DNA from: Sporobolomyces roseus
Lineage: Eukaryota > Basidiomycota > Microbotryomycetes > Sporidiobolales > Sporidiobolaceae
DNA length: 64,000 nucleotides
Reading direction: 5' to 3'
Assembly: GCA_016617785.1 (NCBI GenBank)
Contig: JADILM010000005.1
Location: 1,798,001-1,862,000, forward strand
The notes below the pieces were generated by a model. It saw only the letters and a program-made list of their open reading frames with translations, searched no databases and had not been told where the DNA came from. A program made the position numbers and the translations under genes. How positions within the stretch are numbered: the first letter of the stretch is position 1; every line of letters begins with the position of its first letter. Positions 5,221 through 55,372 of this stretch are shown here, piece by piece.

Positions 5221-5231
5221 ACTTTCCCATC

Positions 5232-11412: not shown

Positions 11413-11457
11413 GTCGTCTCGTTTCCTTCGCTCTTCCCGCTTTCCCCTTACTCCGCG

Positions 11458-25021: not shown

Positions 25022-25741
25022 TAGCTTCCCCCTTTCTTTGCTTGTGGAACTATACTTGACCTTCCAACACATCTCTGACAATGTCCAGCGAGAGGATTGA
25101 GAGGCTCGCGACGAAGCGAAGAGGCGACGAGGAAAGTTTAGTTAGAAGGAAAGCGAGAAGCAACGAGCAGAAATGATCTGAGCGGCGCGTCGGACGAGTT
25201 CATATTACCTACAAACTGGCGTAGCTGCGAAGCGCGACTATCAGGCAAGTGACAGAGGGAGAACAAAATATCGACCAAGGAAGTCACTCACGCCCACCCG
25301 AGTCCGAGAAGCTACTTCGCGTCCGAGAAGCTACTCAGGTGGTATTAAGAGTAGGAAGAAGTCTGGAAAGTGAAGTGTAGGAAGCAGAGAAGCGAATTCG
25401 CTGTTTAGTTTCGAACAACTCACCGACCACGACCACAACGACTCAGATTCAGCTGGACGCGCTTTTGTACGATACTCTAGATTCTCAAGAACCTTACAAT
25501 AGTCCCTGTAGTCTTAGTAAGCCGTCCTCGCTGTTCCTCGGCTCGATCAACTTTCTCATCTCGAATTGTTTGGGCCTCTCTTCAGCCCGAGGCAAAGCAG
25601 CTCTAGCGGTGGTAGATTATAAGTAGCTATCTTTCGCTATACTGAGTAACGGTCTGACTGTCTCTGGCCAGCAGCAGCTCACAACTTCTCCTCTTCCTCT
25701 CCTCTTCTCATCTCGACCGATTCCTTCCGAACTTTCTCGAC
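25022..25741. other. Intergenic with a short direct repeat
   Basis: No gene is supported. A 15-base sequence, GTCCGAGAAGCTACT, occurs at 25302-25316 and 25321-25335. A CT-rich leader precedes the next start. Confidence 0.5.
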
Positions 25742-26670: not shown

Positions 26671-27421
26671 TAGGGACCAGTTCTAGACAAGGCTCGAGTG
26701 AACCGCTGGATTGGAGTGATTGAGCGGGAATTGGTAGAAAATGCTTGTAACGTTCATTTTCTTCCCTACATTCCGCGAGTCAACTCCATTCTGGTCTATT
26801 CTCACGTTTCACCAAGTGCAGGGAGAGCATGGAGACTCACTTCGAGTTTTTGTTCCTCTGCGCAGAGCCAACAGAGAGCGACGTTTTTGAAGACTATGCT
26901 CAAGATATGCTGGTTTTCGCTTTGACTATGAAATGAGGGCTCACCTTGGCATCGAGGGTACCTTCATTAGTATCATCACTCGTTTGTGCGTTGATGCAGT
27001 TGAGACTGCGATTCAAGAAAAGCGTTCCCAATTCTTGACTTTCGACAATTCACCCCTGAAGTTCTCGCTCGGCTCAATTACCTCCACTAACGCATCCACC
27101 AGGTCGAGAGCTACACTTAGAGCTCCAGCACAAGCAATAAACTCCTTCCACCTTGTTCCCGTTCTTTCGCGACTCGACACAATCCCTCACCTCGACAACC
27201 TGCAGATTCTTTTCGTGTATTCGCTTCTCTCTGATAGGATTTTGTTCTCTCAGGTTAGCTGGCAATGTAAAGCAGACGTAGCTGAGAACAACTTGAGAGA
27301 GTTTACATGTGAAAAGGAGAGACGAAAGAATGAAAAAAAAAGGTAAAGTAATGAGAGAACAACTCCATTTTAACTCAACTAGGGTATACACACACACATC
27401 ATACCATTCCAACTCTATCCT
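26671..27421. other. Intergenic, possible gene remnant
   Basis: Short coding-like pieces occur on the plus strand (for example a frame near 26830-26935 and one at 26933-27346). They have no recognisable family and no clear splice connections. The region contains the 3' flank of the clathrin light chain gene. I would not call a gene. Confidence 0.35.
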
Positions 27422-33417: not shown

Positions 33418-33735
33418 TCAATTGATAGCCTCCATACAAGCACACAAGGCGGTAACTACCGCTGGATGCGAACGAGCTACGACTTCGCTCAAAAATCGTA
33501 TGATCTCGCGAGTACTGTGCGAAGCGTAACTCCTGCTGTAAGGCGTGTCATCGAAGCGGTAGTGGTTGATCAATGAAAGGTGGATGAGGATCTTGTGACG
33601 GAAGGAGCTGAGCCACTTCTCGTAATGCTGAAATTTGTTACAGATCAAGCAGTACACGAGCGATTCTCCCTGCCCCTCTGCAAGATCTGCGATCCCATTC
33701 AAGCTCTCCTGCCCATTAAATCCTCTCAGACATCT
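33418..33735 (-). pseudogene. C-terminal fragment of a MYND-family gene
   Basis: An open stretch without start or zinc finger encodes KWLSSFRHKILIHLSLIN and STREIIRFLSEVVARSHP. These align with the last third of the neighbouring MYND proteins (SWWSTFHHLHVHLV and GRLIRYLREVVALTH). It sits directly downstream of the intact copy that ends at 33738, on the same strand, which suggests a deletion or unequal crossover left only the tail. Confidence 0.65.
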
Positions 33736-33737
33736 TC

Positions 33738-34668
33738 CTACGCCTTTTCGTACTTGATCAACAGATGACTGATCTTGTCGGCCAGGTCGGGATGAGTCGC
33801 CTTGATTTCTTCTTCGCACAACTTGAGTATACTCCTTCTTGACCAACTCATACATCTCCAAAGCCCTTCATCAAAACCTGCTGCTCTGAAGTGCCTGTTC
33901 AAAAGTGCTACGTAGCGAAGGTGCTCGTGTTGAAAGCGAGTCCACCATGAGGCGAAAGTCGGGGAAGAGGGAAGATCTGCTTGGAAGTTGATTTGGGTGA
34001 GGGCAATGTAATTGAAAGGGTTCAAAAGTATCGCTTGGTGATCGGTAGCAGCCATTGGCTCTCCTGCATATCTCTGTGTTTCGAATCGGTTTTTCAATGC
34101 CGATGCACGAAGTTGTACGATCTTCTGAGTGTCTGAAAGTGTGAGAGGTCGATTCTCCAAAGACGACTCTTGTAGACGTTCTAAAGCTTGCTGTCAAGCG
34201 CGAAAAGCAGCGCTTTGAGCGGTTTCGAACGGTAAACGAGAGGCGACGCAGACTCACCTTGAAAAGCCCGACACGCTTCTCCGGCGGTGCAGCATTCTTC
34301 TCGAATAATGAATCCAGCCAGCAGCTACTTTGAACGCCGTTGATGACGGTTGTGGCGTAGGGCTTTTGCGAGATTTCGAGCATGTCCTCAACTTCCTCCG
34401 GGGAAAATCGAGGCCACGAGTAGGGAGTTGAGCGGACACCGCAAACTCGCTTGTGTACAAACCAGATCTGTATATCTCGATCGTCAGCGATATATGCGTA
34501 GCGAATGGGAAGAGGCAAGCTAACCAATTTCTGATGCTCGATCGAGCAAAAAAACATCCAATTGGTCCCACTCGACGCGCATGAGCTGCAACGTTTCGTA
34601 GTGATACTTCCACATACTACACATTCGCCCGAGTCAATTTGAGCTGAAGGAGAAGTCGAAGTAGACAT
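33738..34668 (-). CDS. MYND-finger protein, local family member 2
   Basis: Three exons (34525-34668, 34258-34467, 33738-34190) give about 268 residues in frame. The finger reads CVVC, seven residues, CSSC, ten residues, FCSIEHQKL and later HKRVCG, with the first intron (phase 0) right after HQKL. The middle exon has SSCWLDSLF. The last exon has LLNPFNYIALTQINFQADL and a terminal helix (RRSILKLCEEEIKATHPD), both shared with the other copies. All zinc-ligand positions are present and there is no lesion, so this copy should be functional. Role unknown. Confidence 0.72.
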
Positions 34669-35334
34669 GACTGGAGAGGGGAAAGGAAGAGTGGAGAAGA
34701 AAAATCTAACTAATGTCCCAAGAGCTGGTCAGCGAAGGCTTCACTCCAAGAGATGGAAATAAGCTTACTTCTGCTGTGACTAGTAGCTCGCTACAATCGA
34801 GTTGAGGAGAGGGAGAAGCGACTCGAGATGACGAAGTTGATTGATCTGAAAGAGAGCGAGGACGGCGTGGAGCTAGCTTGAACTTCGTACAGTCAGAGTT
34901 GTGAGTTTTTTGATACTGTTCTGAGTGGCACAGAGTCGTTCGAGTGAGGTTGAGGCGTTTCTGAGGAAGTGAGGAGAGTGAAGAAGCGAGAGCGCTTTTT
35001 CGCACCATCCAACGTTAAGTATCCAAATACACCAAGCTGCAAAGATCTCACTCCGAGGCAGATCAGATCAGCTTCGGAGAGTGAAAATGTAACTTTCGAA
35101 ATTGTCGATTTTTCTCTCTCGCGAAGTTGCGAAAAGTCAGAGGCGACTTGCGATGCTCTCAATGGCCTCACTTACCGGAGATTGACAGCGAGATTGAGCG
35201 ACGAGGCGGATCGAGACGGATTGCCAGGATAAAGAGGAGTGTTACAACGACAAAGGTTCAAATTCCCACAAAGATTACAACAAGATAATCCTAACGACAC
35301 AAACTGGACCCGTACCCTCCTCGTACCCTACCCT
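34669..35334. other. Intergenic
   Basis: Upstream of MYND member 2 and downstream of the frameshifted copy, both on the minus strand. The open frames on both strands have no family resemblance; nothing else is seen. Confidence 0.45.
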
Positions 35335-36222
35335 TCATACCATCTTGATCAATGCCTCCGCCTCCGCTTCATGAGTCAGCGCGACGACCTCTCGCAAGTA
35401 GCGAATGAGTCGACCTGCAGTGTATTCGATGTACTCCTCCGTCTGAGCGAGTCGAGCTTGATCTCCCGGAGGTATCGTACACTGCTGATACAGGATACAA
35501 ACGAGGTGAACATGTAAGTGATGGAATGTCGACCACCATGATTTGTATTTGAGGGAGTTCCGAGAGATGTTTGGGAGAACTAGTTCTTCAGAAGCGATCA
35601 AGTAGTTGAAAGGATTTTCGGCGATGAGGCAGTTGACGATATCATCTGAGGATTGACCGCGATGTTGGAGAGATAGGTAACGGATTTGATGGGCTGAATC
35701 GCGGAGAAATGACAAGTCCTCTTGAGTTTTGTCTAGTTCTAGACGGCGCTGCGAGCGCGTGCAATAAAGAAACGTCAGTCAGAGACAGTCGCGAGTGAGT
35801 GTTAGCGAGGTAGACGTACTCGTAGCAGGAAAGGTCGAGGATCGAAACTATTCGGAGGTGGTCCAGATCCCATCAATCCGAGCCATCCTGGTATCCCCAC
35901 CTCGCTCAACCACGTTGCACCTACTTCAGTCTGACCTTCTCGAATGATATCGTCGATCTCTCCCCTCGTAAAGTTTGGCCACAACAAGGATTTGATCTTT
36001 TCCCACAAACTCGTTTATGCATTACCCATATCTGGAAGCGTCGATTCAAGTAAGCTCCGGTTACACTTCAGGCTGGTAGATGAGCGAGCTCACGAATCGC
36101 TGGTGCTCCTTTGAACAGAAATAAATCCAATCGCAACCATTCTCGGAACAAGCTGAACAACGTGTGTAAGAGTCCATCCCGCATACTACGCACTTGCCCG
36201 GGGCGAGTGAGGGGTTCGACAT
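35335..36222 (-). pseudogene. MYND-finger family copy with one frameshift
   Basis: Exons 36094-36222, 35820-36031 and 35335-35748. The finger is complete: CVVC, seven residues, CSAC, then FCSKEHQRF and HKRVCG. Just after HKRVCGKRSNP, near 35978-35990, the frame that encodes the conserved LWPNFTRGEIDDII is one base away, as if a T had been lost. The exon lengths sum to 755, not a multiple of three. Everything downstream is intact (AENPFNYLIASEELVLPNIS and GRLIRYLREVVALTH). It is either a young pseudogene or an assembly error. Confidence 0.7.
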
Positions 36223-36620
36223 GCCGAGAGGCTGATGCGCTTCAAAGGTAGGGGATCGAGGGGAACGAAGGGGAGAAGAGCGGCTGCAAACGTCTTTGCA
36301 AGAGGGTTAAGAGGACCCCATCTGGTTATTGATGGTCTAGTATGACTCACAGAGTGGTAGCTAGGAAGCTCAAGAGTTCTCTGAGCGAGCCACAAGCGAT
36401 GCGAGATCAGTAAGTTGATCGAGGTGGGAAAGAGCGAGGAAAGAGTCAGATCGATCGTAGTTGATTCTAGCAGTATTCGAGCTTGACCTTCTGGTATTCG
36501 AGTGTATCACAAGCGATTCAGCGAAGTCGAGAGAGGTGGAGGAAGCTAACCTTTTCAGAGCGATTTCTCTCCCTTCTCCACATCACTTTAATTCTCAAGC
36601 TACCCTCCGACCCAACCAGA
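36223..36620. other. Divergent intergenic region
   Basis: Lies between the start of the frameshifted MYND copy (minus) and TRAX (plus). No gene is seen. Confidence 0.5.
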
Positions 36621-38053: not shown

Positions 38054-38762
38054 TTACCAAGTCACGGTAGACGAGGGTGATGTCGAAGCGGGCTGCTGTT
38101 TGAGATGAAGTCGATGCTTTCTTCCGTCCTCGAGATCTGAAACCCGTTACGAAAGTGAGCACTCCTCAAATTCGTTCGTTCATCTAGAGACCTTCGTTGA
38201 CTTACACTGCTCGGAGGTGAAACCGTGATTCCACACATACTCCATTTCGGCACTGACGACCAACACTTCGAGTTGGTTTTTGCTCTCGCACAAGATCTTC
38301 GCATTCCGAGGTCCGACCATGACTTGATCACCCGCAGATCTCGTGTCTGATCTCTCGGTAAGCGAACATGCTACCCATTGTTTGGATTTGTGCCAGTACG
38401 AGAAACGCATTTTGACTCCCGGAATATTCAACCTGGAGACTTTGCCTGCTCGAATACAAGTTGACAGAGTCAGTAGCCACAACAATTCACCAGAGTAGAG
38501 GAGTAGGCACAAACCCCGGTCGTTTGTTACTTCGCCAACAAAGACAATGTCTTCCTTTCTGCAATGATAAGGTAGTTCGTAAATCCTGTCAGCTTGTCTT
38601 GAACTTGTGTACCGACATAGCTCATTGAACGCCTTCTCGATGAGGAGAGCGAGCAGCTTGGGGTCGCGCTGTATCAGTACTAACAGAACGATCAGAAAAG
38701 AAACCGGTTAAAGACTGTGAGAAAGAAAAGGAGAGTCAAGGGAGACTTACAATAATGCTCAT
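38054..38762 (-). CDS. AGPR-family protein, copy 1 (short)
   Basis: Four exons (38751-38762, 38515-38668, 38206-38445, 38054-38136) give about 162 residues, intron phases 0-1-1. It belongs to a family seen six times between 38.0 and 55.4 kb and not recognised from known families. It shares the helical start LLALLIEKAFNELC, the block YELPYHCRKEDIVFVGEV, the strand LNIPGVKMRFSYW and a variant motif VGPRNAKIL. The last exon is 83 bases against 254-311 in the other copies, so the C-terminal strand-rich part is missing. There is no signal peptide or membrane segment. It may be expressed as a short form or be degenerating. Confidence 0.55.
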
Positions 38763-39214
38763 TATGGCTCGAGCCCTCGGTCGAAGAAAGCTGCAAGCGA
38801 GATCCGCAGTGAAGAAGCCCGAGAGACTCGATAGAAAGCGTTAAGGGAGAAAAGGACCTCGTATCGGGACTTTCACCTCGACTTGTAGGCCGCGGATTTC
38901 TCGGGGGTTGAGAGCATTCGGCTAGTGCGGGGGCGGAGAAGGAACTCGTACGTCATGCCCGCTCAAGCTCAAGTCGACCGAAGGGGAATTTGAGGGGAAG
39001 CAATCAGTTTCGAAAGGTGAATTTGAAGAGACGTAACCGAATGACAACGAGGTTAGGAGGGTAGACTACATTGGTGCAAGAGACAGTCAACTATGGTGCT
39101 AATCACAAATGAGAAGGAGCCCCGAGAGGACAGAGTAACAAATTAGGGGAGAAATAAGAGAACAACCATCTCAGCTTTCGTAGAGATCACGGTGTAGTAG
39201 ACATCAAATGACAG
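38763..39214. other. Intergenic
   Basis: Lies between AGPR copies 1 and 2, both on the minus strand. Nothing further is seen. Confidence 0.5.
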
Positions 39215-40143
39215 TCACGACTCTAACTTGACGGGAGTTCGAGGTTGAGGGTGGTGAGGGTTGTGCTTTCGATTGAGCTCTGCCGTAAATTCAAAGTGAA
39301 TCTTTGTAATCGGATTCTTCCCGTCACCGCGGTAGATCTTGTAGTCTGCGTTATAATTGACAAAGTCGGGAGGATGGAGAGTATATAGGCTTCTTGGGGG
39401 GTTGCCTGCTTGAGCAAGGACGAGCTCACACCGGTACATGATCGAATCCGCTCCCTTCAGATGGAGGACTGAATAATGACAAACCGCGAGCCAAGAGTCA
39501 GTGTAGCCCGAGCGTTAGAGGAAGAGAGTCTACTTGCTCATACTGCTCATCCAGCTACGCCGCTGAAAGTCGTCCATTCCAGGAGACGACGGCTTGACAT
39601 TCGAATGAACCCCCTTCTTCCCTACGAAATCGAGGTGTCCCGCCCAGCGAGGTCCGGCCATCTGAGCAAACTTGTAGTGGGGGAATCGATGTATATCGAC
39701 AAAACGAGGACAAGTAATCCAGGAAGAGATGAGAGGATTCTGCTGGTCGAGACACGCTCGCATTGGGACGGCAGGTATCTTGTACTGCCAAATGTAGCGC
39801 TCTTCCCGCTGCTTCGTTGTGGCTATCAGTCAAGACAGCTCATGTAAGCTCATCTCTGTAAGTGGGACAATAGAGACTCTGGACGAACCGCGATGGAAGA
39901 TTCCGCGAACTACACCGGACGGGATCAAATCTTGACGAACACAGTGATAAGGCAACTCGTAGACAGGCCATTGATCACCCTTCGTGATCTCACAGATCCT
40001 CGTAAACCCTACTTCGACGAGTTTGGCGACGATTTCAAGCTGGATGATTATCGAGCTTTTGATCAGCTAGAATAAACGACTTTGAGGACGGAAGAGATTG
40101 GGCTCACTGTGTTCTCTGAAGGGGGCGTTTTTAAGTTGAGCAT
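39215..40143 (-). CDS. AGPR-family protein, copy 2
   Basis: Four exons (40108-40143, 39889-40039, 39559-39822, 39215-39468) sum to 705 bases, 234 residues, phases 0-1-1. Family blocks in order: LVEVGFTRICEIT, YELPYHCVRQDLIPSGVV, WQYKIPAVPMRACLDQQ, SWITCPRF, MAGPRWAGHLDF, and the late strand ITKIHFEFTAELNRKHNPHH. It has no signal peptide and no membrane segment, so it is probably cytosolic or nuclear. Function unknown. It is the same length as copy 3, which argues for a complete gene. Confidence 0.65.
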
Positions 40144-40558
40144 GAGTAGTGCGGATGAAAGAAGCAAGATGTGAGCAAGCCTATCGTTCGGACTCCGAAA
40201 AAGTCCGCGGTGTACCTGCAGCTCGGCATGGCTGACTCTGCACAGCAACGAGACAGTGTAAGTGTGTTTGAGATAGCAAGACAGTTTGTTAACGACGACG
40301 AGGAGAAAAGAGAAAGTAGTATATGAAAAGTAGAGAAGGGGGGCGTGTTTACGAGCCGAGAGAGTGTGAGTGAGGTAGAATAGTAAGCGGAGTTGAAAAA
40401 GGGGTAGATATGTAAGGGTATCTTGAAAATGAAGAGAGAGAAAGAATGTGACTTTTGTCGGGGAAGAAAGGACGAAGGAAATATAGTGAGGGAGGGAGGA
40501 AGGAAAGATATCGAGAGAGTTATGACATGGAGCAGATAAGGCAGATAGAGTGATCCAT
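40144..40558. other. Intergenic
   Basis: Upstream of AGPR copy 2 (minus) and downstream of CHS7 (minus). It is purine-rich on the plus strand. No gene is supported. Confidence 0.5.
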
Positions 40559-41923
40559 TTAGTAAGCGACACCCTATGAGAACGAACGCATAGATGAGAT
40601 CAGTTCGACTCGAAAGATGTCATGCAAAGAGTTTGAAGACTCACCTCCCAATCATCTTCAGTAACCATTTGCCACGCAGCAAAGATCAATCCAATACTGA
40701 CCGTCTCCAAGAGAGTCGCGATCCATGATCCATCAATCCTCGCGTTGGTTCCGGTACAGATCCTATGACTCAAAGCATAGTACGCTGCTTGAGCCAAAAT
40801 GAACGAGATAGCACTCGCGAGTAAGGTGACTATACACTCAGGTTTCGTCAGTACAAGCTCACCAAAGAGAGGGAAGCGAAGGAACGTACAGAGAGGTTTC
40901 TTTTCCCTCAATACTCGAACGACGACACCAGCTTGAATGACGAAATAGATGAACGCAGCAGCGGCGGGCCAGATGATGGTCAAGACGAACAACCAGACCG
41001 AGTGTAGTTGATCAGGAGGAGAGGATTGGAAGAAATCTGTGATGGTTAATCCAACGTCTGCTGCGATGTATCCGGAACCGACAGTGAGGACAGTTCCGAT
41101 CGCGAACATGGGCTAATCACACGTCGAAGAGCGTCAGTAGTGAATAGAGGAGAAGGAAAGGGAGGAATGTGCGTACGATGAGTGAAAGGAGAGTTCCATC
41201 TTCCACCACTTGGAGGGATAAGAATGCGACCCAAACGAGTACCCAGAATAATCCAACGAGTAATCCAACGTGAGCTGCCGTGATCCTACGTACTCGAAAT
41301 CCTTCTATCAGCACCCACTAACAAGATAGAGGAGAGAGAGTTACGTACCAAGTGAGAGCGACTGATCCAGCTCTGAGTAACGCCGAATTATCTGCCAATT
41401 GCGCACCTTGCACCAAAGCGTACATAACGAACAAGACAGTAATTTCTACCCTTCCAACCGCTGCCGTTCTCCTCAATGCCGCCGCCGCCAATCCCAATCC
41501 AACCAAAACGGCAATTCCACACAGAATCAAATTTGCGATATTCCCCAACCTGCCATCTAAACCTCCTGTGAACCCTGCTCGAGGGATGTAACAAGCTGAA
41601 TTTACTCCCACTCCGTAAGTTGAGAGGAGTTGGTTGAATTCGGGAGTGGAAGCATCGGGGAATCCGAGGAGTTGGGAAGCGGGTGCTTGTTGTCCTGAAG
41701 GGTTGTGTAAGAGTTGACGGAAGAATAAATTGCAGATGGGGAGGGATGGGATGTTGCGACAGGCCTATTGTTCAGTCGAGAGGTAAGAATCAGTCAACTC
41801 TGCTTTTTGGGAGGAAACGGTTTCCGATCGGAATATTCGAGGGACGCGATTTTCTTGCTATCTATTGAAGCTAAGGGTAGTAGGACGTACGTAATCAAAG
41901 TCACCGAATCCGAATAAAACCAT
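40559..41923 (-). CDS. CHS7: Chitin synthase export chaperone CHS7
   Basis: Six exons (41891-41923, 41349-41764, 41177-41285, 40890-41112, 40645-40829, 40559-40573) give 326 residues in frame. Start MVLFGFGDFDYACRNIPSLP, then about seven hydrophobic segments, including NIANLILCGIAVLVGLGLAA and AAHVGLLVGLFWVLVWVAFL. The CHS7 hallmarks VEDGTLLSL and ALSHRICTGTNARIDG are present, with MVTEDDWE near the end, matching the family. CHS7 is an ER membrane protein required for exit of chitin synthase III. The last exon encodes only GVAY and stop and is the least certain part. Confidence 0.9.
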
Positions 41924-42812
41924 CTTGTAACTGGCTGAACGTGTCGAGAGGGAGAGGAGTCGAAAGTTGGTTGAAGTTGATTTCTACTTCTATGTTTTTC
42001 AATCGAATTCCGAGCCTACAGCAGAGATCGACGGGTCAGCTACAATTTGAGTACTGTCAGTGATATAATGAGAATACTGACTGGTAGAAGGGGAGGATAG
42101 ATTCGAAAGGTTTGTTCCCGGAGAGGAAGGAGAGTTTAGAGAGAGAGACGGGGACCGAGTCTGCTTTGAAGGAGGAGCTGACTTGGTGTGAATGAATCTG
42201 CTTGAAGTGTAGTCGGAACTGGAGCTACTGATTGCTGTATTCGAAGAGTAGATTGATGGAGAGAGGAGGAGAGACAAGGATGGGAAACGAGAGACAGAAA
42301 GTTGAAAGAACGCGGGGGGGAAAGCAGCAAAGGGGAGAGATCAATACTGAATCAGTTCTACTCCCTGACTCCTAGTATATATAGTCAGTACTTACAGTTC
42401 TAGCCTAGTGAGAGAGAGAGAGAGGGATCGACGGTGAGAGAGGTTCAAGCCAAGGCATGATTTCACCTCGACAACTTTTTTCATTACAAGTTGAAATCGA
42501 AACTCAAATAGGAAAGTTGACCGTTAAGCCTCCTCGAGCTAAACTTGCATCGTCGAGCTCAAGAAGAAGTGAGCGACGTAGATTCATTCCGAACTGCGCG
42601 AGTTCAAAAGGAGGAAAGAACGATGAAACGAAACAACGAAAACTTCGATTCTTTCGCAAACACCTCTCGCTGTTCTCTACCTCCTTGAAGGACTAGCTCT
42701 CTCAGTCGATGAGCGAGAGTGTGGAAGCGAATGTATATTACTGCGTTGTAGAGTACTTCTCCTGTCCTCCTACCTTCCCACTGATCTCGTTGACTTGTCT
42801 CCCTCGATCAAA
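41924..42812. other. Intergenic
   Basis: Upstream of CHS7 and downstream of BUD31, both on the minus strand. It includes a GA-repeat run near 42410-42424. The open frames on both strands show no family features. Confidence 0.5.
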
Positions 42813-43794
42813 CTAATCTGTTGACGCACAACCTTTACAGCCTGTGCACGATCTCAACCCATCAGTGTCCTGTCAAGACGGATGAAGGGAAAGCAGGAAG
42901 AGAGACGCACCGCAATGAGTGCATTCAACGATGACATTCTCCTTCAGTTGCGCTTTCGGTACCCTACAAATGCAAGTAGATCCACTATAATTCATATCCT
43001 GCACGTCGAACCCGAATTTCCCATCAGCTGATTCCCTTAAATCAGGATTGGAGAGAGGTAGAAATGCGTACCCTCGATTGAATACATCTAGCACAACACA
43101 ATTTCTCATATCCAGATTTCTTCCATTTCGCAATCAAACTAATCACTCCTCTCAACTCCTCAACAATCAGTATCCCCCTTTCTCTCCCAACTTTCATAAA
43201 CAAAGAGAGAGATATAGGTAGGCTTACTTTGCATCGGCGTATTCTTGTTTCAATAACCAATCGTAAAGTTCTTTTGAAATCGCTTCTCGTTTATAATACA
43301 TATCGTATATATACCTAAGCTCTTTCTCTCGTATCAGCTTCACTTTTTCCAGCCCTCCTGAGAAATGAGGGAAGAAAAACAAAAACGAACCGAGTACGAG
43401 TATGAGTAATTCTCATTATAGGCCACAAACTCTCAGTTTTCCTTTTACCCTCATGTGACTCTGCTTCCGCTGTACACCACACACTCACACGAGTCAGTAA
43501 GGATGAGGAAAGAGGAGGGAAAGGAGGGGAGAGAAGACGTACCATCTCGCATTTTTCGATTGTATTCTTCTAGAATATCTTCGATTTCTTCATAACCTTC
43601 TGGTGGAGGTTTCGTGCGACTACATTGGAGTACGATTGAAGAACAGGGAATAGGGAGTAGGCAAAGGAAAGGGGAGAAAGGGAGATGATGAGATGAGGAG
43701 AGATGAGGGGAAGAGAAAGGGAAAGGTCAGTCAGTGAGGAGCGGAGGAGGAGGAAAGGGAAGGTAGAGATTTACTTTGTCTTGATCTTTGGCAT
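42813..43794 (-). CDS. BUD31: Pre-mRNA splicing factor BUD31 (G10 protein)
   Basis: Seven exons (43775-43794, 43543-43619, 43391-43469, 43228-43314, 43072-43138, 42911-42998, 42813-42841) sum to 447 bases, 148 residues, close to the usual ~144-157. Conserved throughout: [38 protein letters not shown]-like [35 protein letters not shown], and the Cys-rich zinc end ICRVPKAQ then CTHCGCKGC. BUD31 is a core spliceosome component. Seven exons for so small a protein underlines how intron-dense this genome is. Confidence 0.95.
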
Positions 43795-44905
43795 GCTAGA
43801 GAGCGGTGTGAGGCGGGAAGGAGGCGAAGTTGATCAACAAAGAGATGAAACTAAACAACTTGATGGGAGGCGTTGAGAGTTGCTCTGTGTTGTTGCTGGT
43901 GTATGTGATGAGTGTTCTAGGTGGTCAATGAAGTAGTAGAGCAAGAGAGAGTGGTGGGAGGGAAGTCAACCTTCGGAACTCGAAATCTGTCAAAGGTTGA
44001 TCTGCTACTCTTCACTTTGCTTCGCTCTGGTTTTGCTTGGGATGCACAGCTACTATTAGGAAGCTGGTACGAGCGCCGTACTATTGATCTCATCACTCTT
44101 GAACGCTTTCCTCGAAGATTCGCCATTTTCGACTTTATCGGTTCACAGCCGGAGGAGAGGACGACCTCGTCAGTTTGGAGGCTACGAGTGGTCTCAAGAG
44201 TGCGCCCGAGTACTATGGCAGGAGCTTCAGGCAACTCGCAACGCGCAACTTTAAATTTGACTGTTTCGAGCGAAATCTCGATTCGATTCGTGAGTCGGTC
44301 AGAGGCGCGACAGATGAACTGGAGGAAAGTTGCAGATACGTGTGAGTTCACTTCTGCTCTCTTTGTGACAGAAGGGAAGAGAGAATGGCCTGAGCTGACA
44401 TGAGATTCTGAGGTTTCCCAGATTCTCTTCAATCGTTTCGCCTTTCATCTCGGTTACAACCTAGCTCGTCGCTTTGAGCTATGAGGTACACAGCTCAAAT
44501 CCTCTCAGCTGGTCGGAATGTACGACCCTGGATTGGTGATCAATCGACGCTTCGCCGCTTCACGCAGACTCAGCTTTCGCATTACTTTCCCTTCCCTTTC
44601 CCTTTACGTCCTCCAATTCGCTCGAGCGCTTCGCTTCTTACCTACCTCTCTTCAAGACTCAAGAATTCTTGCCGTTGCATACACTTCTCTCAGCTCGTCG
44701 TCAGGAGGGACCTCCTTCGTTCGGTCAACAATCTACCGCTTTGTTCCCATAAAAGGGGAAACGTCCGCGTCTTGTCTCTTTCTTCCTCTCTTCTCACCCT
44801 AGTCATCACCTCACTTTTCGTAAGCATCTCGCGATTAGGGATTACCCAAGCTTGCTAATCAGTTGTTGTGCCGACAGTTCCTTCTTCCCCTTCGTCCGAA
44901 CAACA
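43795..44905. other. Divergent intergenic region
   Basis: Lies between BUD31 (minus) and the GPI-type gene (plus), about 1.1 kb. Overlapping open frames of ~160-170 codons occur on both strands near 43920-44430, but neither has a signal, domain or splice pattern. CT-rich DNA precedes the plus-strand start. Confidence 0.45.
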
Positions 44906-45890
44906 ATGTCCCGCTCGCTCCTGTCCCTCGCAGCCACCATCGCTCTCTTCTCTCTCGCTAGTGCACAAGCTACCGTCGGCTCTCCCAACCTCTTCGAATG
45001 TGCACCTGCAGCGGTACAATACGAATGTTCTAAGCCTCCGTGCCAAATCATCGGTTCGTCCGCACCCCCGCACTTTACACACTCCTCTTGATTTCGAGAG
45101 CTGATCGGAATTGAACGTGAGCAGCGAGACCTGACGGAGACCCAACTAGTAGTCTTCACAACTTTGGATCTGTCAATGATGCGAGCGGAAGTGTATCTTG
45201 GAGACCTGTAGATCAGAAACAAGGGTTCGCACTCGTTTGTCCTATCCGTCTTCGCGGGAAACTGATAAAGTCAAACGATCAAACAGCACCGTCGTCGTTC
45301 TCTACATTACCGATTCTGATGGAGTTCAAGCAACTTCCGCCAAATTGACTGTAAACGAAGCTTCGGATCCAAGCAACACGCTCAATGATCAAGGACAATG
45401 TTTCCCTCTCGACCCCAACAGCTCTTCGGCTTCGGGGGAATCTTCGACTGCAGGATCTCAAACTGGTTCTTCCTCCTCGAGTGCGTTGGACTCTCGGAAT
45501 TACATCCGCTCTTTGACTGACCGTTACTCCGATGATCTCACGCAGACGCCGCCGATACTGCTAGTTCGAAAGTAGCTTCAATCACTTCCAAGTTGGGAGA
45601 CGCTACTTCGAAAATTGGAGATCAAGCTACTTCAGCTGCCAACGCTGCGTGAGTCGTCCTCAGTGCTTCAGCGACCTCTAGACAGACGATCGCTAAAGCT
45701 TCTGTCGTCTTCACAGTGAGAGCGCTACTCCTGGATCTGGAGCAGCTGGAGTATTCGTCAAATCTTCGTGAGTTCGGAAAGCGATTCATAAGTAGTCCCT
45801 GTCCGAAGACTGATGTTATAGCTTGCTGGTCTACGATCTCACAGTGCCCTCGCCGCCGCCATCGTCGTAGCCGCTTCCGCTCTCTACTAG
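44906..45890 (+). CDS. Secreted, probably GPI-anchored Ser-rich protein
   Basis: Six exons (44906-45053, 45125-45224, 45287-45480, 45546-45648, 45717-45767, 45845-45890) give 213 residues. The signal peptide SLLSLAATIALFSLASAQA is followed by a compact domain with CAPAAVQYECSKPPCQI, SVSWRPVDQKQGTTVVLYIT and LTVNEA. A Ser/Thr/Ala-rich stem follows. The end SALAAAIVVAASALY is a short hydrophobic tail of GPI-signal type. I chose the acceptor at 45844 for the last exon because it yields this tail; the alternative acceptor near 45821 gives a Pro/Ser end. No named family recognised; likely cell-wall or surface protein. Confidence 0.7.
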
Positions 45891-46460
45891 ATGTCACCTT
45901 TCCTCCCCTTACGATTGCAGTTCTAGATCTTCCCCTTCTCTTCCACCTTCGACTCTCTATCTCTCTCATTCCTCCTATACGATCCCACCTTGTGTAAGAC
46001 TGCTGCGCGTTGTTTTCCTTTTCGAACGAGACATCATGGACTTTCTACGCTATGAAAGATTCATCGAGAGCGAAAGCTTACCATATCGAGTGGAAGCTAA
46101 CCGTATCTCTACAATCGAGACGAGCTATCCATACACTCGAAATCAGAAGCTGCATTTCCATCTCTCGTCTATCTATTCACAACGCTGTTAGTTGTCCAAT
46201 TTTGCCATTTATCTCTTCGAACGAGCGTTATGGAGTGGATCTCTTGGTACATCGGCCGATCTCGGATCGTCAGATGAGATTAGCGAGACGAGGTACACAT
46301 GGTGCACTGTTAGCGCTAGTCAGCAGACCAAGAACGTGAGAAGAGCGAGATACCGGTTATAGACGACGCCAGCTAAATCTTCCGAAGCTGACTCTGCCAC
46401 TCTCCTCTCTCACTCTCTGCGATTAGAATCAATCAGCTCGAGCAGCTGTACCTCCTTGCG
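45891..46460. other. Intergenic
   Basis: Downstream of the GPI-type gene and upstream of AGPR copy 3. No gene is supported. Confidence 0.5.
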
Positions 46461-47353
46461 ATGTCATCATCAGCTCCAATCGATCTCGTGAGTGGAAGTC
46501 TGCTGTCTGTTTTTCATCTCGTTGACTAGTTTCCCTGATCAGCACTCACTTACAAGCCTACTAAGACAAGCCATTGATGAAATCTGCAAGAGTACTGATG
46601 CAGGTCATGATATCTACGCTGGTCTACCTTACCAGCTCGATTGGAAACAGCTCGTTTCGAAAGGGTCGAAAGTCACGAGATCATCCGAAGGCGGTACGCT
46701 CTACTACTCATTTGATGGATCCGACCTTCATCAGACGAGCCGCTGACTACGTCTGTCTCGTTGAATGTAGAGGAAGTTCAAGTTTGGCTCTTCGACGTTC
46801 CCGCTATTCCAATGGTTCTCGCACTCTCGAGCGTTTTCGATCAATGGGCAGCATATCCAGCACATCTTCGAGCGAGCCCGGTCGGTAGACCCAAGGCTGT
46901 TACCGTCGCCGGTCCTCGTTACGCTGGAATGTTGGCCGATGATCTCGAAAGAATTGATTTCTCGAACCAAGAGATGACTCGCTTTCGCAATGAAGGGTAT
47001 ACCTTGAATCTAAGTGAGCTGATTCTATCTCTCTCAGAGTCGGCCTGACTGAATGTCTTTCGATCTCAGACGCCGAGGATGAACAGCACATTTTCTTCCT
47101 TCGCCAACGAAACCCTTACAATCTTCACCCACTCGATCGAGACGACCCACCGCCCAGCTTCGTCGTCTACGACGCAACTCACACTCATCGATGGCCAGAA
47201 GGATCGCGAACAGTACACCTCGAATTGACTTTGCGAATCCCTCTTCCGCCTCGAAGTCGTCGAGAATTTACACCTACTCCTCGAGCAAGAGCCGTAAACG
47301 TCCTAAACTCACCCGAGCAACTTCTTCACCCTCTTCGTCACCCCTCGCAGTAG
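46461..47353 (+). CDS. AGPR-family protein, copy 3
   Basis: Four exons (46461-46487, 46543-46693, 46771-47013, 47070-47353) sum to 705 bases, 234 residues, phases 0-1-1. Family blocks: SLLRQAIDEICKSTD, YAGLPYQLDWKQLVSKG, VWLFDVPAIPMVLALSSVFD, TVAGPRYAGMLADDL, EMTRFRNEGYTLNL and, late, RTVHLELTLRIPLPPRSR. It is probably soluble. Function unknown. It is separated from the nearest copies by housekeeping genes (CHS7, BUD31, HOOK), so the family is interspersed rather than in strict tandem. Confidence 0.63.
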
Positions 47354-47675
47354 CCATTCTTGACCTTTTGTTTGATCTTCCTGTCCCTCTGTTCATTTCC
47401 CGTTCGAAGCTGTAATCTCACAAATCCTGTTCACCGATTGAAACGAGCTGACAAGGAAGTAGAACGGATGTTGCAGGTATCGAGAGAGATTCTAGTAATA
47501 AGTGATTGGGTATGCGAGTGAGGGATAGAACGAGAGTACTGAGTGAGGGTATATGGATGATGCGAATAAGAAAGGAATGAAGAGGGGAGTCGACGGAGCA
47601 TGGGTGGAGTCAAGTCTAGGAGTGGCGCTGATGAGGTGAGATAGGGCGAACATCAGCTAGTCGTCCCCGGCGAAA
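47354..47675. other. Intergenic, convergent 3' ends
   Basis: Lies between AGPR copy 3 (plus) and the HOOK gene (minus). Nothing is seen. Confidence 0.5.
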
Positions 47676-50600
47676 TCAAAGGAAAGAGATCGGGAAACTC
47701 GCCAAACTTTTCCCACCATTCGTAGCTCTCAGTCTCTGTTGTTTGATCCAACTTTGAGGCTGGTACTCTCGTTCACCGTTACTTGAGCTAGAGTTCGAAT
47801 TGACGACTTGTTCACGAAGATGCTTCATAGCGTTGTCGTGCCAGGCTGAGAGAATCAAGGAGTGTTCTCGTTGGTAATTCCGTTCGAGTTCATTCGTGAT
47901 AGACTAGATCGGGAGGGCAGATGAGTATCAGCAACAGCGACAGAGCATAGTCCAAGGTTCTGCAGAAATGATGAGCGTACCTTTTGACGAGCGAGGTCTT
48001 CTGTCAGTTGCGAGATTTGCGAAAGATTCGATTGCATCGTTTCTTCGTAGTTCGCCTATTCAGCAGACGGTGGCGGATCAGTGTCAAGCAGCAAGAGATT
48101 CAAGTGCTATCATGTAAGCGCGGCAAGGAGACGTACCGATAACTCAGCTTTCAACAGCTTGTCTTGCGATTTGATGAACTGTATCCAACAAGAAACTACC
48201 ACATCAGTCTCGCGCGAGCAGGAGAGACATGTAGAGCGAGTGGACACACAGCTTTAGCTTTTTGTAGGTTCTCTTTCAGCCTTTCGACTTCATCTCGCAA
48301 CTCTTTCTCAACTCCAGCAAGTTTCGTTCGATCCGCTTCAGACATTCCCTTCTTGTTCGAGCTGCACACCGACTCTATCGTCAGCCTTTATACTCGCCTG
48401 GTGAACAACACGAGAAGGACGCACCCAAATTCTCGCTCTCTTTCAAGCATCTTCTCCCGTTGATTGATCCCCTCTCCTTGTAATTCAATCTTCTCCATCA
48501 ATAGCTTGTTCACTTCTTCTCGATGAGCCTTGGCACGATCTTCTGCGAGCTTGAGAGAGCCCTTGACTTGTTCCAACTCGGACGAAACGGCGTCTTTCTC
48601 GACAGAAACAGAGGCTCGAAGGGAATGCAGGATCTCGAGTTGATCTTTGTTGACGAGGTTCACTATAATCGCCGGGGATCAGTCAGCCGAACAAAAGCGG
48701 CGAAGGAGAACGGAGAGCTGACGATCAGACTTTGCGATAGTGAGTTCTCGTTGTTGCGATTCGAACTTGACCTCGATTTCTGCCAGTTGTTTTCGAACCT
48801 TTTCGAACTCATCGATCGTTTCGTTGAGATGTTGACGTAGCGCAATAGCTGCTTCAGGGCTGAGAGAAGGAGTTGAATCAGTAAAATAGCCTCCGAATAT
48901 GTCAAAGAACGCCTCACCCATCTCCCACTCTCGATTTCCCGCTCATAATCTCCTCTAGTTTCCTTTCCGCTCTCATTCGCTCCCTCGTCTCCTTCAAGTA
49001 TTCTCCCTCGTATCGCTCCTTCATCCTATTTGAATCCTCCAACAAATTCTCCAGCACCATCAACCGACTTTGATCTGCAGAATTCGATTCCGCCGCCTTG
49101 AGTTGACGCTCCAGTTTCCGAATTCGAAGTTTTAAATCGGTCGTGGTCGTCCCAGTAACCGCATCGTTCAACTCCGATCCGACTCCCTCGAGATCTGAAT
49201 CATCTCCTCCGGTACTATTCTCACGTTTCTTCCCATTTCGTTTCGACCCTTTCTCTCCCAATTCCAACTCCCTCACTCGCTCTTCCAACAATCCAGCTCC
49301 CTCCCTCTCTGTCCCTCGTTCCTCCTCGACGGCTCTCAGTTTCTCTCGAACTCCCTCCAATTCTCCTTTCAATCGTTCGTTCTCTTTCAGGTGTTTCGAT
49401 GATTTCGATTCGAGAGTAGAGATTTGTGATTTGTAGGAATCCATGAGAGGTTTGAAGGTTGAAAGTTTCGTGTTCTCTTCTTCGAGCGTAGTATTCTTGT
49501 CGAGTAAATCAGAATTTTGATCTTCGAGAGTCTATCGTCGCAAGCAAGTGTGATCAGTTCATCCCAAGTCAGAAAGAATCAGAGTGGTATTGACCTTGAT
49601 CACTCGTTTCCATTCACCTGCTTCTTCGACTTTCTTCTTATACTTTTCGAGAACGTTTTCCATCTTCTTCGCTTTCTCACTCGCATGCTTGTACTCGTCC
49701 ATCTGATCTTTCAGTCGAGTAGCTTCAGTCGCCAATGGTGTAAAATCGTCGACCTGTTCAACCTCGACGGAAATTATTCAGCGCGCGAACGATCAATAAC
49801 TTCCAAACGAGACGAACCTTTTTCGTCAATTCCTCAACCAGTTTCGTTTGTTTCTCTGCAAGTTGCTCGGATTCACCAAGTTGATTCTCCGTCTTCTGCC
49901 TGTGAGGTACCACGGATATGATCCATCAATTCCAGCCGAGAACGATGGGAGAATCAGGTGAAACTCACAATTCTCCTCGTAATCGATCAATCTCAGCTTT
50001 CAATCCTAGTTCGTTCCTTTCGCTTGACTTGGCTTTCGATCGTTTCTCGGCATCGAGAGCTCGAGCTTCGGCTGCAGCAGCGGTTTGAAGCGCTTCTTCC
50101 TATTCTCGAACAGAGAGACGGGGGATCAGTCTTTGAGCTGCTTTTAACGGCATGCGAGACTCGGAGCTTACGTGTTCTTCTTTGAGCGCGTTATGTTGTT
50201 CGACGAGATCTTCGTAGATGATTTGTAAAGCTTCTTTGTCGTGCATCAATCTTGATTTCTCGTGTTGGATGTGGTAGAACTCGGAGTCGGCGCTGGAAGA
50301 TCGAAATCAATTCAGCTGGAGATGAGACAAAAGCTGAAGGACTGTCGAAACTTACTCTTGTTCCATTGTTTTATCTCGATCTGAATTTGGGTGAACTTTA
50401 CTCATGACCTATCGAGGTGAGGTTTGATGAGTTGAAGCGATCCAGATGAGGCAAGAGAGAGAGCAGGGTTTACTTGTTCGATCGAATACATGAGCTCTCG
50501 TTGAACCCATTCCTCGAGACCTTGAATCAATTCGATATGTTGTAGTCGGTGTTCAGACTGCGAGGCTTGGGACCATTTCAGCTTCGGATCGGAAGAAGAT

Positions 50601-51221
50601 GAAGATGCGCGAAGACTCACCTGCACAGCGAGAGCGAGAACCAATCCGACCAACTTGCAGATCTCGTCTTCTGCACCTTCTGCTTGAGATTGACCTTTCG
50701 CAACGAGCTGAAGATTCGGTGTGTGGAGTTCCGTCGTTGATGATGACAGTACATCTCTACGCGTGTATTCCTGGTGAGCTGAAGTCCTCAATGTATAGGA
50801 GGAAGGTAAGACTCACTCGAAATAACGAATCAATAATTTGTAAAGTCTCTTCAAATTGTTGAACCTCAATACCCAATTCTCGCTCAACGCTTTCGTATTC
50901 GACAATGAAGCAGTGAGTGGTTTGAAATGATTCGAATCGCTATTCTCCTCTTGAAGAGAGTCAGAACCCAAACCCCCACTTTATCGAAAAGAAAGGGAAG
51001 ACTCACATCTCCAATAGAGCTTGACCTAACACTACACCATCCATCAGATCACCTAACTCGTCCACTTTGTGACCTTCCCCAATACCATCGCTTGTGGTAG
51101 AAGAGAGCAAACGCTGAGTCGAAGGAAGAGTTCGAGTCCACGTCAACAGCGCTTCGGGGAGTTGAGCATGCGTCGAGGTCGATGCAAGGGAGGAGAAGAG
51201 CGATTTGCGAGGTGCTGGCAT
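47676..51221 (-). CDS. HOOK-family dynein adaptor (long coiled coil)
   Basis: A many-exon gene starting at 51221. The N-terminal HOOK domain is clear: LPEALLTWTRTL, DLMDGVVLGQALLE, then ENWVLRFNNLKRLYKLLIRY, EICKLVGLVLALAVQ and HIELIQGLEEWVQREL. The rest is almost continuous coiled coil, with heptad-rich stretches such as LKEEHEEALQTAAAAEARAL and LRIRKLERQLKAAESNSADQ. The protein probably ends at 47676. HOOK proteins link cargo, for example early endosomes, to dynein. Exon ends are clear in places (first exon 51007-51221) but not all were resolved. A frame problem exists between the first and second conserved blocks (50945-51006): the donor is phase 2, but no AG in the interval gives the needed frame. 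Confidence 0.8.
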
Positions 51222-51765
51222 GCCTTAGAGTGAGAGTGAGAGGAGGGAGGAGGGAAGGTTGAGGGATCGTGCGGAAAGAGAGAGAACGGCTCGATGGACG
51301 TGTAAGTTGCGCTCGATGAGGATTATGAATTTCGCTTAGCTGGTGCAGGTGTTCAGTGGCTTGCTTGAAGAGGTTGCTGAAGTGGAGTGATTCGTTGAAG
51401 TCGAAGGGATTTTCGAGAGTCCGCTCTTGCTTCTCTACCACAACCTCGATTCCTGCTTTAGCGCCCCTGAAGATCTAGATCATGCTCAGATACGGTCAGC
51501 AAGGCAATGCAGCTCTCGGTTGGGCTAGCTTCGCTCTGATTTCGCCCTTCTCGTTTCGTCATCTTAGATTCTGCTTCAATGGCTTCTCCCGAGCCTGACG
51601 ACTCTGTGAAGGACTTCACCAGTACGAAGAGCTACTAGGAGACTGTATGGGTCGTCTCTCGCTCCGCGGTACTGTCTAATCCCGATCAAAAACTTGAGGA
51701 ATCGCTCTTTTCCTCTTCCTCTTTCCCCCTTATCCTCTGTTCCTCCTCACTATCGGCCGCCTGAG
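51222..51765. other. Divergent intergenic region
   Basis: Lies between HOOK (minus) and AGPR copy 4 (plus). A CT-rich leader precedes 51766. No gene is supported. Confidence 0.5.
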
Positions 51766-52694
51766 ATGGAGGCACTGCGAGACTCGGTGCGTTTGTCTTC
51801 CGTTCCCTTCTTGGGTGAATCGAAACTGAAAAGCTGTTCTCTTCTTAGCTCGATAAAGCAGTCATCGCTCGACTCCTACACAAAGGGTTCCTCATGATCT
51901 GTGATCTCACCGACAAACCAACTTTCCCCGATTATCCTAGTCGTCGAAACCTTTACCTTCACGGCTATCAATGTTCGGAACAAGATCTCGTTTTAACTGA
52001 ATTCTTACTTGCCGATGTTCAACCTGGTCAGTCTCTTTCTCTCTCTCTTTTGACTTATCGACCTTGAACTGAGAAAAAGATTATCGCAGGTGGCCGACAA
52101 CCTGTCTGGAAGTTCGAGGTTCCAGCAGTTCAAATGGTACGCCTGTGCCGACCTCAGTCAACTTCAACCGATTTGGAAGACTTGTCCCCAAGCCACAGCC
52201 GTCTCGGAGCATCCACACTTCATCTTAGAGCTCATGGCTGGACCTCGATTGGCTGGAGTTCTGCCACAACGAGGAGAAGTCAGACCTGACCTCGGAAATC
52301 AAGGAATGCTTGAGTTCGCGAGTCATGATAGGACAATCCTTGTCGGTACGTCTCGGCTTCTCTCCTACCCACTGCTGAGTCTTAGCTGAACCCCTTTTGC
52401 ACCGTTCTAGAGGAAGGATTCGAATCTCACGGTACCAATTTTCGACATTCGCTGGAACTTCGACAAGAATCTGAAACTCTCGAAGTCTCACACAACCTCG
52501 TACCTCCTCAACAAGTCGTATATCTCGGTATCTACTCGGTATATCAGATCAACGTCCCCCAGAATCGACTCGTTACCAGACATCTGAAGTTTACGGCGAA
52601 ACTTCGTTCGACGTTTCAACCTCGATCTCGCAAAGTTCAGGATACATCTCGCTCTCTCGACGTTTTGAACTCTACACATCGCTCCTCTCGCTGA
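51766..52694 (+). pseudogene. AGPR-family copy 4, with one-base frameshift
   Basis: Exons 51766-51786, 51849-52026, 52090-52345 and 52411-52694. The family blocks are well kept: ARLLHKGFLMICDLTD, YLHGYQCSEQDLVL, VWKFEVPAVQM, then YACADLSQLQPIWKTCP, LMAGPRLAGVLP, QGMLEFASHDRTILV and LVTRHLKFTAKL. Between VPAVQM and YACAD, at about 52136-52140, there is one extra G; exon lengths sum to 739, one more than a multiple of three. All other positions are intact, so this is a very recent lesion, an assembly error, or (unlikely) recoding. Confidence 0.68.
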
Positions 52695-53089
52695 GAACCG
52701 ACTAGGTTCTCCGCAGTTCTCGATATTGTTGGTGTTCGTCGTTTGGTGAGTCGATCTTTTCGCTTCGCTTTCCCTCGATTCGTCAGAAAGCTTATCTTTT
52801 ATCCAATCGTATACAGTTGCAACGAAGCCGAGTCATTATGTGTACTTGACAGGGAAAGACCCGCTCGGCTCTCGTTCTCACCTACGACTGGCGAGTCTTC
52901 GCATCGTTTGACCTCCGCTTCTGCATTTTTGCCCTCGAATCCTCGATGCGCCTTCAAGGGAACTGTCGACAACTCTGACTCAATCTTGTGAAGTCTGGGT
53001 AGTTTCCGCGGTGATGTCTAAACCCGAGGAGCTCGCTCTTGGCTTGCGTTCTCTTTGCGTTCTCCTCTTCTCGCTTCCCCTCTACCTCC
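52695..53089. other. Intergenic
   Basis: Lies between AGPR copies 4 and 5. It shows nothing beyond a pyrimidine-rich leader before 53090. Confidence 0.5.
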
Positions 53090-54034
53090 ATGGCACAGGC
53101 TAGAGTACCGGTACGTTATACTCTTACTGCTCCTTCACGTCACCGAACTAAGCGCTCTTCTACTACAGGTCGACAAGCAGCTTCTCGCTCAACTTCTGTT
53201 CAAGGCTTTCGCGAAGATATGCGCAATCACTGATCAGCCAGATACGAGTTATCCTACAGGTCGAGGGCTTTACATGAGAGGTTATCAATGCGATGCGAAG
53301 GATCTCGTCTTTAGTGGTTCCCAATTTACAGAATTCGAGCCAGGTTAGTCCCATCCTTTCTCCCTGGTCCCTCAGCTGAGTACTCAGCAAACGCATCATC
53401 TAGGTCTAATTCATCAAGTCTGGTATTTCGAAGTCCCGGCGGTCACTATGTACGCTTGTGCTCCGACTGATCCAATTTCGACATTCCCGAATCGTCCAAT
53501 GTGGGTGACTTGCCCTCGCCCTCGCAAGAGGGTCCTATGGAATGACAGAGAGGCGGACCATATCCTCAAAACGATGGCGGGTCCTCGATGTGCAGGAGTT
53601 CTCGAGCTCCCGCGGGAGAAGAGACCTCATTTTCAGACAGAAGGAATGTTGAGATTTGAGGCGGCTGACAGATCAGTCAGAGTGGGTGAGCTTTCTATTC
53701 CCTTCTTGCTACTCTGCTCCTCGGCTGGCTGACCTTGAGAGAACCACGAACAGAGGAGGACTTTCGAGTGAACAGAACCGAGTACCGACAAACACTCGAG
53801 GTTCGTCAAGACGGTGATCCTCAAACTCCTCTGGTCTTTGTCAAAGGTCATCCTCCACCTCAGCACGTCACATATGCTGGCGTATCTTCTCTATATCGAG
53901 CCGACGACCTCATCTATCCGGTCGAGGTCACTCACTTCGTTTTCCGAGCTCACTTGGATTCCCGATTGCGTTATCAACCTCAAGCGCGCGATATTCCCTT
54001 GGTCTCCACTGTCCGGGAAGGTCTAAGGTACTAG
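53090..54034 (+). CDS. AGPR-family protein, copy 5
   Basis: Four exons (53090-53110, 53169-53343, 53404-53685, 53754-54034) sum to 759 bases, 252 residues, phases 0-1-1. Blocks: LLFKAFAKICAITD, LYMRGYQCDAKDLVFSG, VWYFEVPAVTMYACAPTD, MWVTCPRP, TMAGPRCAGVLELP, EGMLRFEAADRSVRV and VTHFVFRAHLDSRLRYQP. This is the cleanest copy and a good reference for the family. It has no signal peptide or membrane segment. The pattern of a short helical start followed by alternating strands suggests a compact soluble domain (inference). Confidence 0.68.
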
Positions 54035-54409
54035 GAAAGCCGGAACTTTGATCGATCATGATCTCTTCCCTACAAATTTACTTTTCAGTCTTCGTAAGCC
54101 GTACTTCGCTCTTGTTGTTCTCGTCTCTGAGCTCTGACCTGTCGATTTTGCTTCCTGTGTGTTAAGGTAGATCTCATCTCCTCAATTCTATACTTCGTTT
54201 CGCAACATCTTTTGTTGCGATTTTCTTCTTTCGCATTTTCCTTTCCTCCGACTTTCTTCCGTTCGCAGCTCTACAACCCCCAAAGTTGACGCACGCGGTG
54301 TGATTTACTTTGCCAAGTCGGTAAGAGACTGTCGACCGCGGCAATATCGGACTTCGAAAGATCCCACGCTTTCCTGCTTTCATCCCTCTCTCTTCTTCAA
54401 GTGAACGCC
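54035..54409. other. Intergenic
   Basis: Lies between AGPR copies 5 and 6 on the plus strand. It is T-rich (3' flank of copy 5). Nothing else is seen. Confidence 0.5.
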
Positions 54410-55372
54410 ATGGACAACAATCATGATTTGTCGCAAGCAGCCGTATGTCGATCGCTCAAGCACTCACGCTTAATCTTCTGACCAGTTTCTCTGGCCGTTA
54501 TCAAATAGCTCGGAACTATCGCAAAGCTCATCACCAAAGCCTTTCGCAATATCGCTCGTATAACAGATTCGGCGCCACACGGCTCGTCGATCTATCGTCA
54601 AGCAAATGAGTACTTCTGCACTCGAGACGACATCGTAGTTGTTCAATCGCATCACCCGCGTTAGTCAGACTCTCTCGTTCTAAAACACCATCCTTGCTGA
54701 TTGAATCGCTGTATAAGATAGTACTGCTGACGCCAATCACGCACCTCGAGATACCGGCCATCGCCATGAACACCTGTCGCGCACAAAGTCCGCAAGCTCA
54801 AGTTCGACAATGGTTAGCTTGTCCGACTACGGCAATCACTACACAAGTGACGGGAATCGAGTACACAATGACAGCTGGTCCTAGATGGGCATGGTGCCTA
54901 GGACGTACAAGCGTTGATGGAGGACGAAGTTCTTTGCCTGCGGCGGAACCGAGCGGAATGGGAGCTTTCCGTCTCTCAAACTGGAGAGACACAGTCAGTT
55001 AGTCGTGACCTTTCCCCTTTACCCTACTATCTAGAAGCTGACTTGAAATTCTGTCAATCAGTGGAGGAAGTTTCTTGGCAAGGAAGGGATTGGATTCACG
55101 AGCTCGTTTTGACGCAGAAGGAACCAGAAGCCATGGTGGATATCTCTGACAGACCGCCAGATGAGGTCGTATATGACGCGGTGTATCGCTTCCATCACAA
55201 AGAGCCACACTACATCCAGAAAGAACGACGCTTCGAGCTCAAGGCAAAACTCGAGCATCAACATCATCCGAATCCCCACCACGTCCAGGCACGAAGTCAG
55301 CCAGCACCACACATCCTCCTCACTCAGCCTGATGACGTCGGTACAGGCTCCAGCAACTTCCGTTTGGCGTAG
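54410..55372 (+). CDS. AGPR-family protein, copy 6 (diverged)
   Basis: Four exons (54410-54442, 54509-54659, 54722-54997, 55062-55372) sum to 771 bases, 256 residues, phases 0-1-1. Blocks: IAKLITKAFRNIARITD, YFCTRDDIVVVQ, LEIPAIAMNTCRAQ, QWLACPTT, MTAGPRWAWCLG and HYIQKERRFELKAKLEHQHH. The second Gly-containing part of the motif is changed (AGPRWAW instead of AGPRxAG). Introns use donors GTTAGT at two places. Intact frame, so probably still coding; the most diverged full-length copy. Confidence 0.6.

Follow-up and report, generated by a model that had tools for sequence, protein, structure and literature searches.

A clustered gene family near a chromosome end of Sporobolomyces roseus, with a CCGCGG word upstream of most copies

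Introduction

Clustered families of orphan genes near chromosome ends are already known in fungi. In Neurospora crassa, lineage-specific orphan genes with tandem paralogues are enriched in subtelomeres (PMC2684829). Promoter elements built from CGG triplets are likewise described: Pdr1 of Saccharomyces cerevisiae binds the pleiotropic drug response element TCCGCGGA (PMC8211738), and zinc-cluster factors have direct or everted CGG repeats as their targets. Here we describe six genes, referred to as the AGPR family, which lie in a 64,000-nucleotide stretch of the basidiomycete Sporobolomyces roseus (the window; positions 1,798,001 to 1,862,000 of contig JADILM010000005.1, called C5 below).

Like the N. 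crassa orphans, the AGPR family is without a recognised domain, consists partly of tandem paralogues and has its cluster near a chromosome end. Unlike them, its copies are found on both strands between conserved genes and share a promoter word, and a second contig (C12, 762485 bases) carries two members at a distance of 125-159 kb from its end. The AGPR family may be restricted to one lineage. The resemblance to the Pdr1 element is that the everted CGG core CCGCGG occurs upstream of several AGPR genes; the differences are that a TCGGACT or AGTCCGA half flanks CCGCGG here, that AGPR genes are not transporters and that the factor is putative. The promoter element is the most testable part of what follows. 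We found no description of either the AGPR family or the composite promoter element in the open-access literature.

Results

Six genes with a common exon layout form a family

All six genes that had been proposed from the DNA letters by a model working without database searches (the sequence-only reading) are present at the coordinates it gave (Table 1). Each copy has four exons, the first of them tiny (12-36 nt), just as had been noticed, and splice-site reading of the six loci gave three introns per copy, all GT-AG and 41-82 nt long. Intron phases are 0-1-1 in five of the copies; copy 4 (c4) reads 0-1-2 solely through a frameshift and returns to 0-1-1 once this is allowed for, in keeping with the phases originally assigned. 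The signature motifs had been drawn somewhat too tightly. AGPRxAG, claimed for five copies, is exact in four (c2-c5) and reads AGPRWAW in c6, the VGPR form of the sixth copy being correct (VGPRNAK in c1), while W.FEVPAV.M is exact in c4 and c5 only and the remaining copies conform to [VI]P[AG][VI]xM.

Pairwise identity amounts to 25-32% in the ten pairs among c1, c2, c3, c5 and c6; c4 and c5 are closer to each other (43% in exon 2, 43% in exon 3, 31% in exon 4). Third codon positions diverge most in all ten pairs, at 0.67-0.74, and in nine of the pairs the least diverged are the second positions, which is the pattern expected for coding sequence near saturation. For a leave-one-out analysis, the copies not omitted supplied one profile for each of exons 2, 3 and 4, the two C12 members being omitted jointly, and these profiles were searched against all open reading frames (ORFs) of at least 25 amino acids (aa) in the window, in twenty other 10-kb stretches of the genome and in two C12 stretches. 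The copies align beyond their motifs: in every one of 17 copy-exon tests on window copies (c1 exon 4, which offers too little sequence, was excluded), the omitted copy outranked the best non-member ORF, with an expect value (E) <=0.003 in 16 of them. The weakest case was c3 exon 2, with E=0.059 as against 0.37 for the top non-member. In the twenty other stretches, the exon profiles detected no member at E<1. The six genes form a real family.

Table 1. Positions of AGPR family members and of CCGCGG sites ahead of their start codons (window positions unless a contig is named), with the metagenomic ORFs matching each copy
Feature	Coordinates	Strand	Gene model or position	Metagenomic ORF (identical residues)
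Copy 1 (c1)	38054..38762	-	162 aa; exons 38762-38751, 38668-38515, 38445-38206, 38136-38054; VGPRNAK; premature stop in exon 4	P0005 (81/87)
Copy 2 (c2)	39215..40143	-	248 aa; exons 40143-40108, 40066-39889, 39822-39544, 39468-39215; AGPRWAG	P0010 (68/74)
Copy 3 (c3)	46461..47353	+	234 aa; exons 46461-46487, 46543-46693, 46771-47013, 47070-47353; AGPRYAG	P0002 (91/95); P0008 (120/138, partly out of frame)
Copy 4 (c4)	51766..52694	+	exons 51766-51786, 51849-52026, 52090-52345, 52411-52694; AGPRLAG; exon 3 frame broken	P0003 (73/83)
Copy 5 (c5)	53090..54034	+	252 aa; exons 53090-53110, 53169-53343, 53404-53685, 53754-54034; AGPRCAG	P0001 (90/99); P0007 (74/77)
Copy 6 (c6)	54410..55372	+	256 aa; exons 54410-54442, 54509-54659, 54722-54997, 55062-55372; AGPRWAW	P0009 (150/151)
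C12 member	C12:603044-603277		E=2.5e-5 (P0004 query)	
C12 member	C12:637281-637508		E=0.026 (P0004 query)	
CCGCGG	38890..38895		128 bp before c1 start codon	
CCGCGG	40205..40210		62 bp before c2 start codon; within TCGGACT-N10-CCGCGG, spacing not favoured	
CCGCGG	51664..51669		97 bp before c4 start codon; opens 23-bp block common to c4 and c5	
CCGCGG	53006..53011		79 bp before c5 start codon	
CCGCGG	54336..54341		69 bp before c6 start codon; within AGTCCGA-N5-CCGCGG, favoured spacing	

A CCGCGG word precedes five of the six copies

The word CCGCGG is found 62-128 bp ahead of the start codon in five of the six copies. The window holds seven occurrences, all within 38890-54341, of which five precede start codons and two lie inside coding sequence, in exons belonging to c2 and c5. 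With a background of 10 occurrences in 200 kb (the twenty other 10-kb stretches), 0.045 would be expected in six 150-bp upstream regions, compared with 5 observed (P=1.5e-9, or P=3e-6 once 2080 six-mers are allowed for). Since third positions are saturated in c1, c2 and c6, common descent alone seems unlikely to have preserved the word.

Genome-wide, the word also occurs as part of a composite element. The pattern TCGGACT-N0-12-CCGCGG is present 41 times, as compared to 4 times for the pattern read backwards, and its spacing is 2 in 25 and 0 in 10 of the 41. AGTCCGA-N0-12-CCGCGG is present 35 times as compared to once, with a spacing of 4-7 in 34 of the 35. Together the two patterns yield 76 composite matches, some of which are repeats of each other; three identical AGTCCGA matches inside 41 kb on contig C6 may be repeats of this kind. 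The CCGCGG sites of c1, c4 and c5 belong to neither set. From these sequence patterns, the composite element probably marks a zinc-cluster regulon.

Three of the ten background CCGCGG sites are composite, all of the form TCGGACT-N2-CCGCGG, one in stretch L033 and two in L048. The L048 composites are 94-103 bp from possible minus-strand start codons, and one of the two has alternative start codons at 70 and 242 bp. Eight ORFs beside three composite sites in L048 and L052 gave no Pfam match past the cut-off (best E=0.012). L048:1486-1520 and L048:3107-3141, just beyond the window, are the two copies of a 35-nt repeat that carries TCGGACT-N2-CCGCGG on the minus strand and contains both L048 composites; each copy precedes a minus-strand reading frame of no assigned identity.

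Further members and metagenomic orthologues

When the 22.4-Mb genome was searched with copies 5, 6, 2 and 3, there were 8, 6, 9 and 4 matches, respectively, and all 27 lay inside the cluster. The metagenomic relative P0004 gave seven matches, of which two are on C12 and the other five in the cluster, upon which the idea that the family is confined to the cluster was dropped. Both C12 members were also recovered by the exon 3 profile (E=6.6e-5 and 1.5e-4). Altogether there are at least eight members on two contigs, a lower bound because the searches were made exon by exon and scored the best candidates only.

About 5.8 billion predicted proteins, among which spliced fungal proteins may be under-represented, were searched three times, and ten distinct related metagenomic ORFs emerged. 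Eight of them each match a single copy at 87-99% identity (most of the residue counts in Table 1 take in intron read-through), and some of the source organisms may be one and the same species. As every copy has its own orthologue, the six-copy set is common to those organisms. P0004 and P0006 matched no copy above 45%, and by sequence we class them as an additional subfamily. Compared with 47018-47225, P0008 continues from c3 exon 3 across the intron into exon 4 in a different frame, and by eye this out-of-frame part looks better kept than the exon-3 stretch between the W and MAGPR. It is possible that this one loop is changing fast.

Two copies are damaged, as the sequence-only reading had suspected: c4 by a frameshift within exon 3 and c1 by an early stop in exon 4, past which a family-like reading continues (frames inspected by eye). 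The c4 orthologue P0003 begins with a methionine immediately ahead of the c4-matching residues and runs in a single frame, so the frame break of c4 is not seen in P0003. The break may reflect recent loss or a sequencing error. An overlooked intron was considered and is unlikely, the candidate found by eye being about 20 nt long when family introns measure 41-82 nt.

These data bear on the earlier suggestion of a birth-and-death pattern typical of rapidly evolving recognition, conflict or mating genes. Duplication and the decay of two copies stand; rapid turnover gains no support, each copy having its own close metagenomic orthologue. A family devoted to recognition or conflict (in incompatibility, killing or antiviral defence) that diversifies under selection would account for varied paralogues near a telomere, two of them broken, and for a W-to-MAGPR loop that differs more than the surrounding sequence between c3 and P0008 (by eye). 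However, one-to-one orthologues are retained for every copy, Pfam scans of the members showed no immune or toxin domain, and the common promoter word is just as compatible with ordinary genes under joint control. We regard such a family as unlikely.

No recognised domain, and fold models of single exons

That the family cannot be matched to a known domain was borne out: five copies from the window, three pieces from C12 and four of the metagenomic ORFs had no Pfam match below E=0.1, a profile search of the PDB returned no hit, and the best hit of a PDB sequence search had E=1.1. Exon 4 alone is predicted to form four antiparallel strands in a beta-meander, with a mean predicted local distance difference test score (pLDDT) of 71, and fold searches with this model produced weak, non-significant matches only. 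The viral structure library likewise gave no significant match (best E=0.008, exon 4 only), and no confident fold was obtained for exon 3 alone (pLDDT 43). The five copies assessed are hydrophilic, with a grand average of hydropathy of -0.44 to -0.55, and inspection by eye revealed neither a signal peptide nor a membrane helix.

Fold models limited to single exons, weak fold matches for exon 4 and maintained orthologues would all be compatible with a branch of some ordinary, known family that has diverged beyond the reach of sequence profiles. We consider this a real but minority possibility, since sequence searches of Pfam and PDB gave no match at E<=0.05 for any member scanned.

Chromosomal setting

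The six copies occupy 17 kb (C5:1836054-1853372). GGGTTA repeats terminate C5 (1881794 bases), so that a TTAGGG telomere is 28-46 kb away from the cluster. This proximity, the members on a second contig and the common promoter word go beyond what had been noticed at the outset. Domain identification in the neighbours (Translin, Chs7, Hook and RING genes) confirmed that the copies lie on both strands amid conserved genes. Translin and CHS7 are both absent from the available portion of PMC3236058.

Repeated copies on both strands might also be expected of remnants of a mobile element or an integrated virus. This is hardly probable: the copies keep neighbouring positions, no mobile-element domain was detected, the viral structure library gave nothing significant, and the introns conserved across the six copies speak against retrocopies. 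Even less probable, in our estimation, is that the genes belong to, or are associated with, the mating-type system. The fast evolution of mating genes is a general argument for it, but STE3 matches occur only on C11 and the sole Homeobox_KN match, a candidate mating homeodomain gene, is on C8, and the mating link proposed earlier was not upheld for a cluster on C5.

Other repeated families in the window

A second local family occupies 23912-27343 (plus strand) and 33421-36306 (minus strand), the ORFs of the two parts being connected by BLAST matches with E as low as 2.5e-18. Their Cys-rich starts resemble a MYND finger; three ORFs of this family had no Pfam match at E<=0.01. A large set of repeated ORFs extends over 5102-21381, and one of them matches DUF7402 and F5/8 type C (discoidin-like) domains, on account of which this set probably encodes surface or secreted proteins and has expanded in tandem.

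Discussion

We read the AGPR genes as a lineage-restricted, co-regulated family of intracellular proteins whose function is inferred. An undescribed fungal family, locally duplicated, with five co-regulated copies and intracellular products, is the best explanation overall, and we hold it with about even confidence. That this is an undescribed protein family is borne by the shared exon layout, profile recovery, the members on a second contig and the orthologous metagenomic ORFs. It would have arisen by old, mostly local duplication near a chromosome end, and copies would now be being lost, a direction suggested by the two damaged copies. Five of the six copies are probably switched on jointly by one CGG-binding factor of the zinc-cluster type acting at CCGCGG. 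The products would probably be soluble, intracellular proteins with a putatively helical N-terminus, a middle exon in which the blocks W..CP and MAGPR occur, and a predicted C-terminal four-stranded beta-meander.

Several observations weigh against this explanation. On the side of regulation, c3 has no CCGCGG in the 400 bp upstream, the total in the window is not above that of shuffles (7 versus a mean of 7.8), and CCGCGG was picked as the word after inspection of the sequence. Moreover, a 23-bp block found nowhere else in the genome is common to c4 and c5, so that the five sites amount to fewer independent events. Exact composites occur at two of the six copies (c6, spacing 5; c2, spacing 10, which is not favoured), and the genome-wide composite patterns placed no site near the C12 members. 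The CGG-binding factor and its signal are putative, and the fold predictions cover single exons. As to membership, the C12 members are not significant with the exon 2 or exon 4 profiles (E=1.5 to 20), and their inclusion depends on exon 3, exon order and two phase-1 introns read by eye.

What the proteins do can be addressed only tentatively. Their likeliest role would be that of scaffolds for binding, active in a response to conditions such as stress or a change of nutrients, with copies differing in partner; taken on its own, we put this well below even odds. A new family, perhaps with a new fold, of recognition or defence proteins, in which diverse telomere-near paralogues are under one CGG-binding switch and copies vary between strains, is a reading we think rather improbable; if it were true, strains would differ in what is recognised.

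Many fungal genes have no known relatives, and most of them give no handle for study. For the AGPR family, at least eight related genes, a promoter word, intact beside damaged copies and natural orthologues make regulation and loss testable together, and the composite CCGCGG element hints at a regulon open to mapping.

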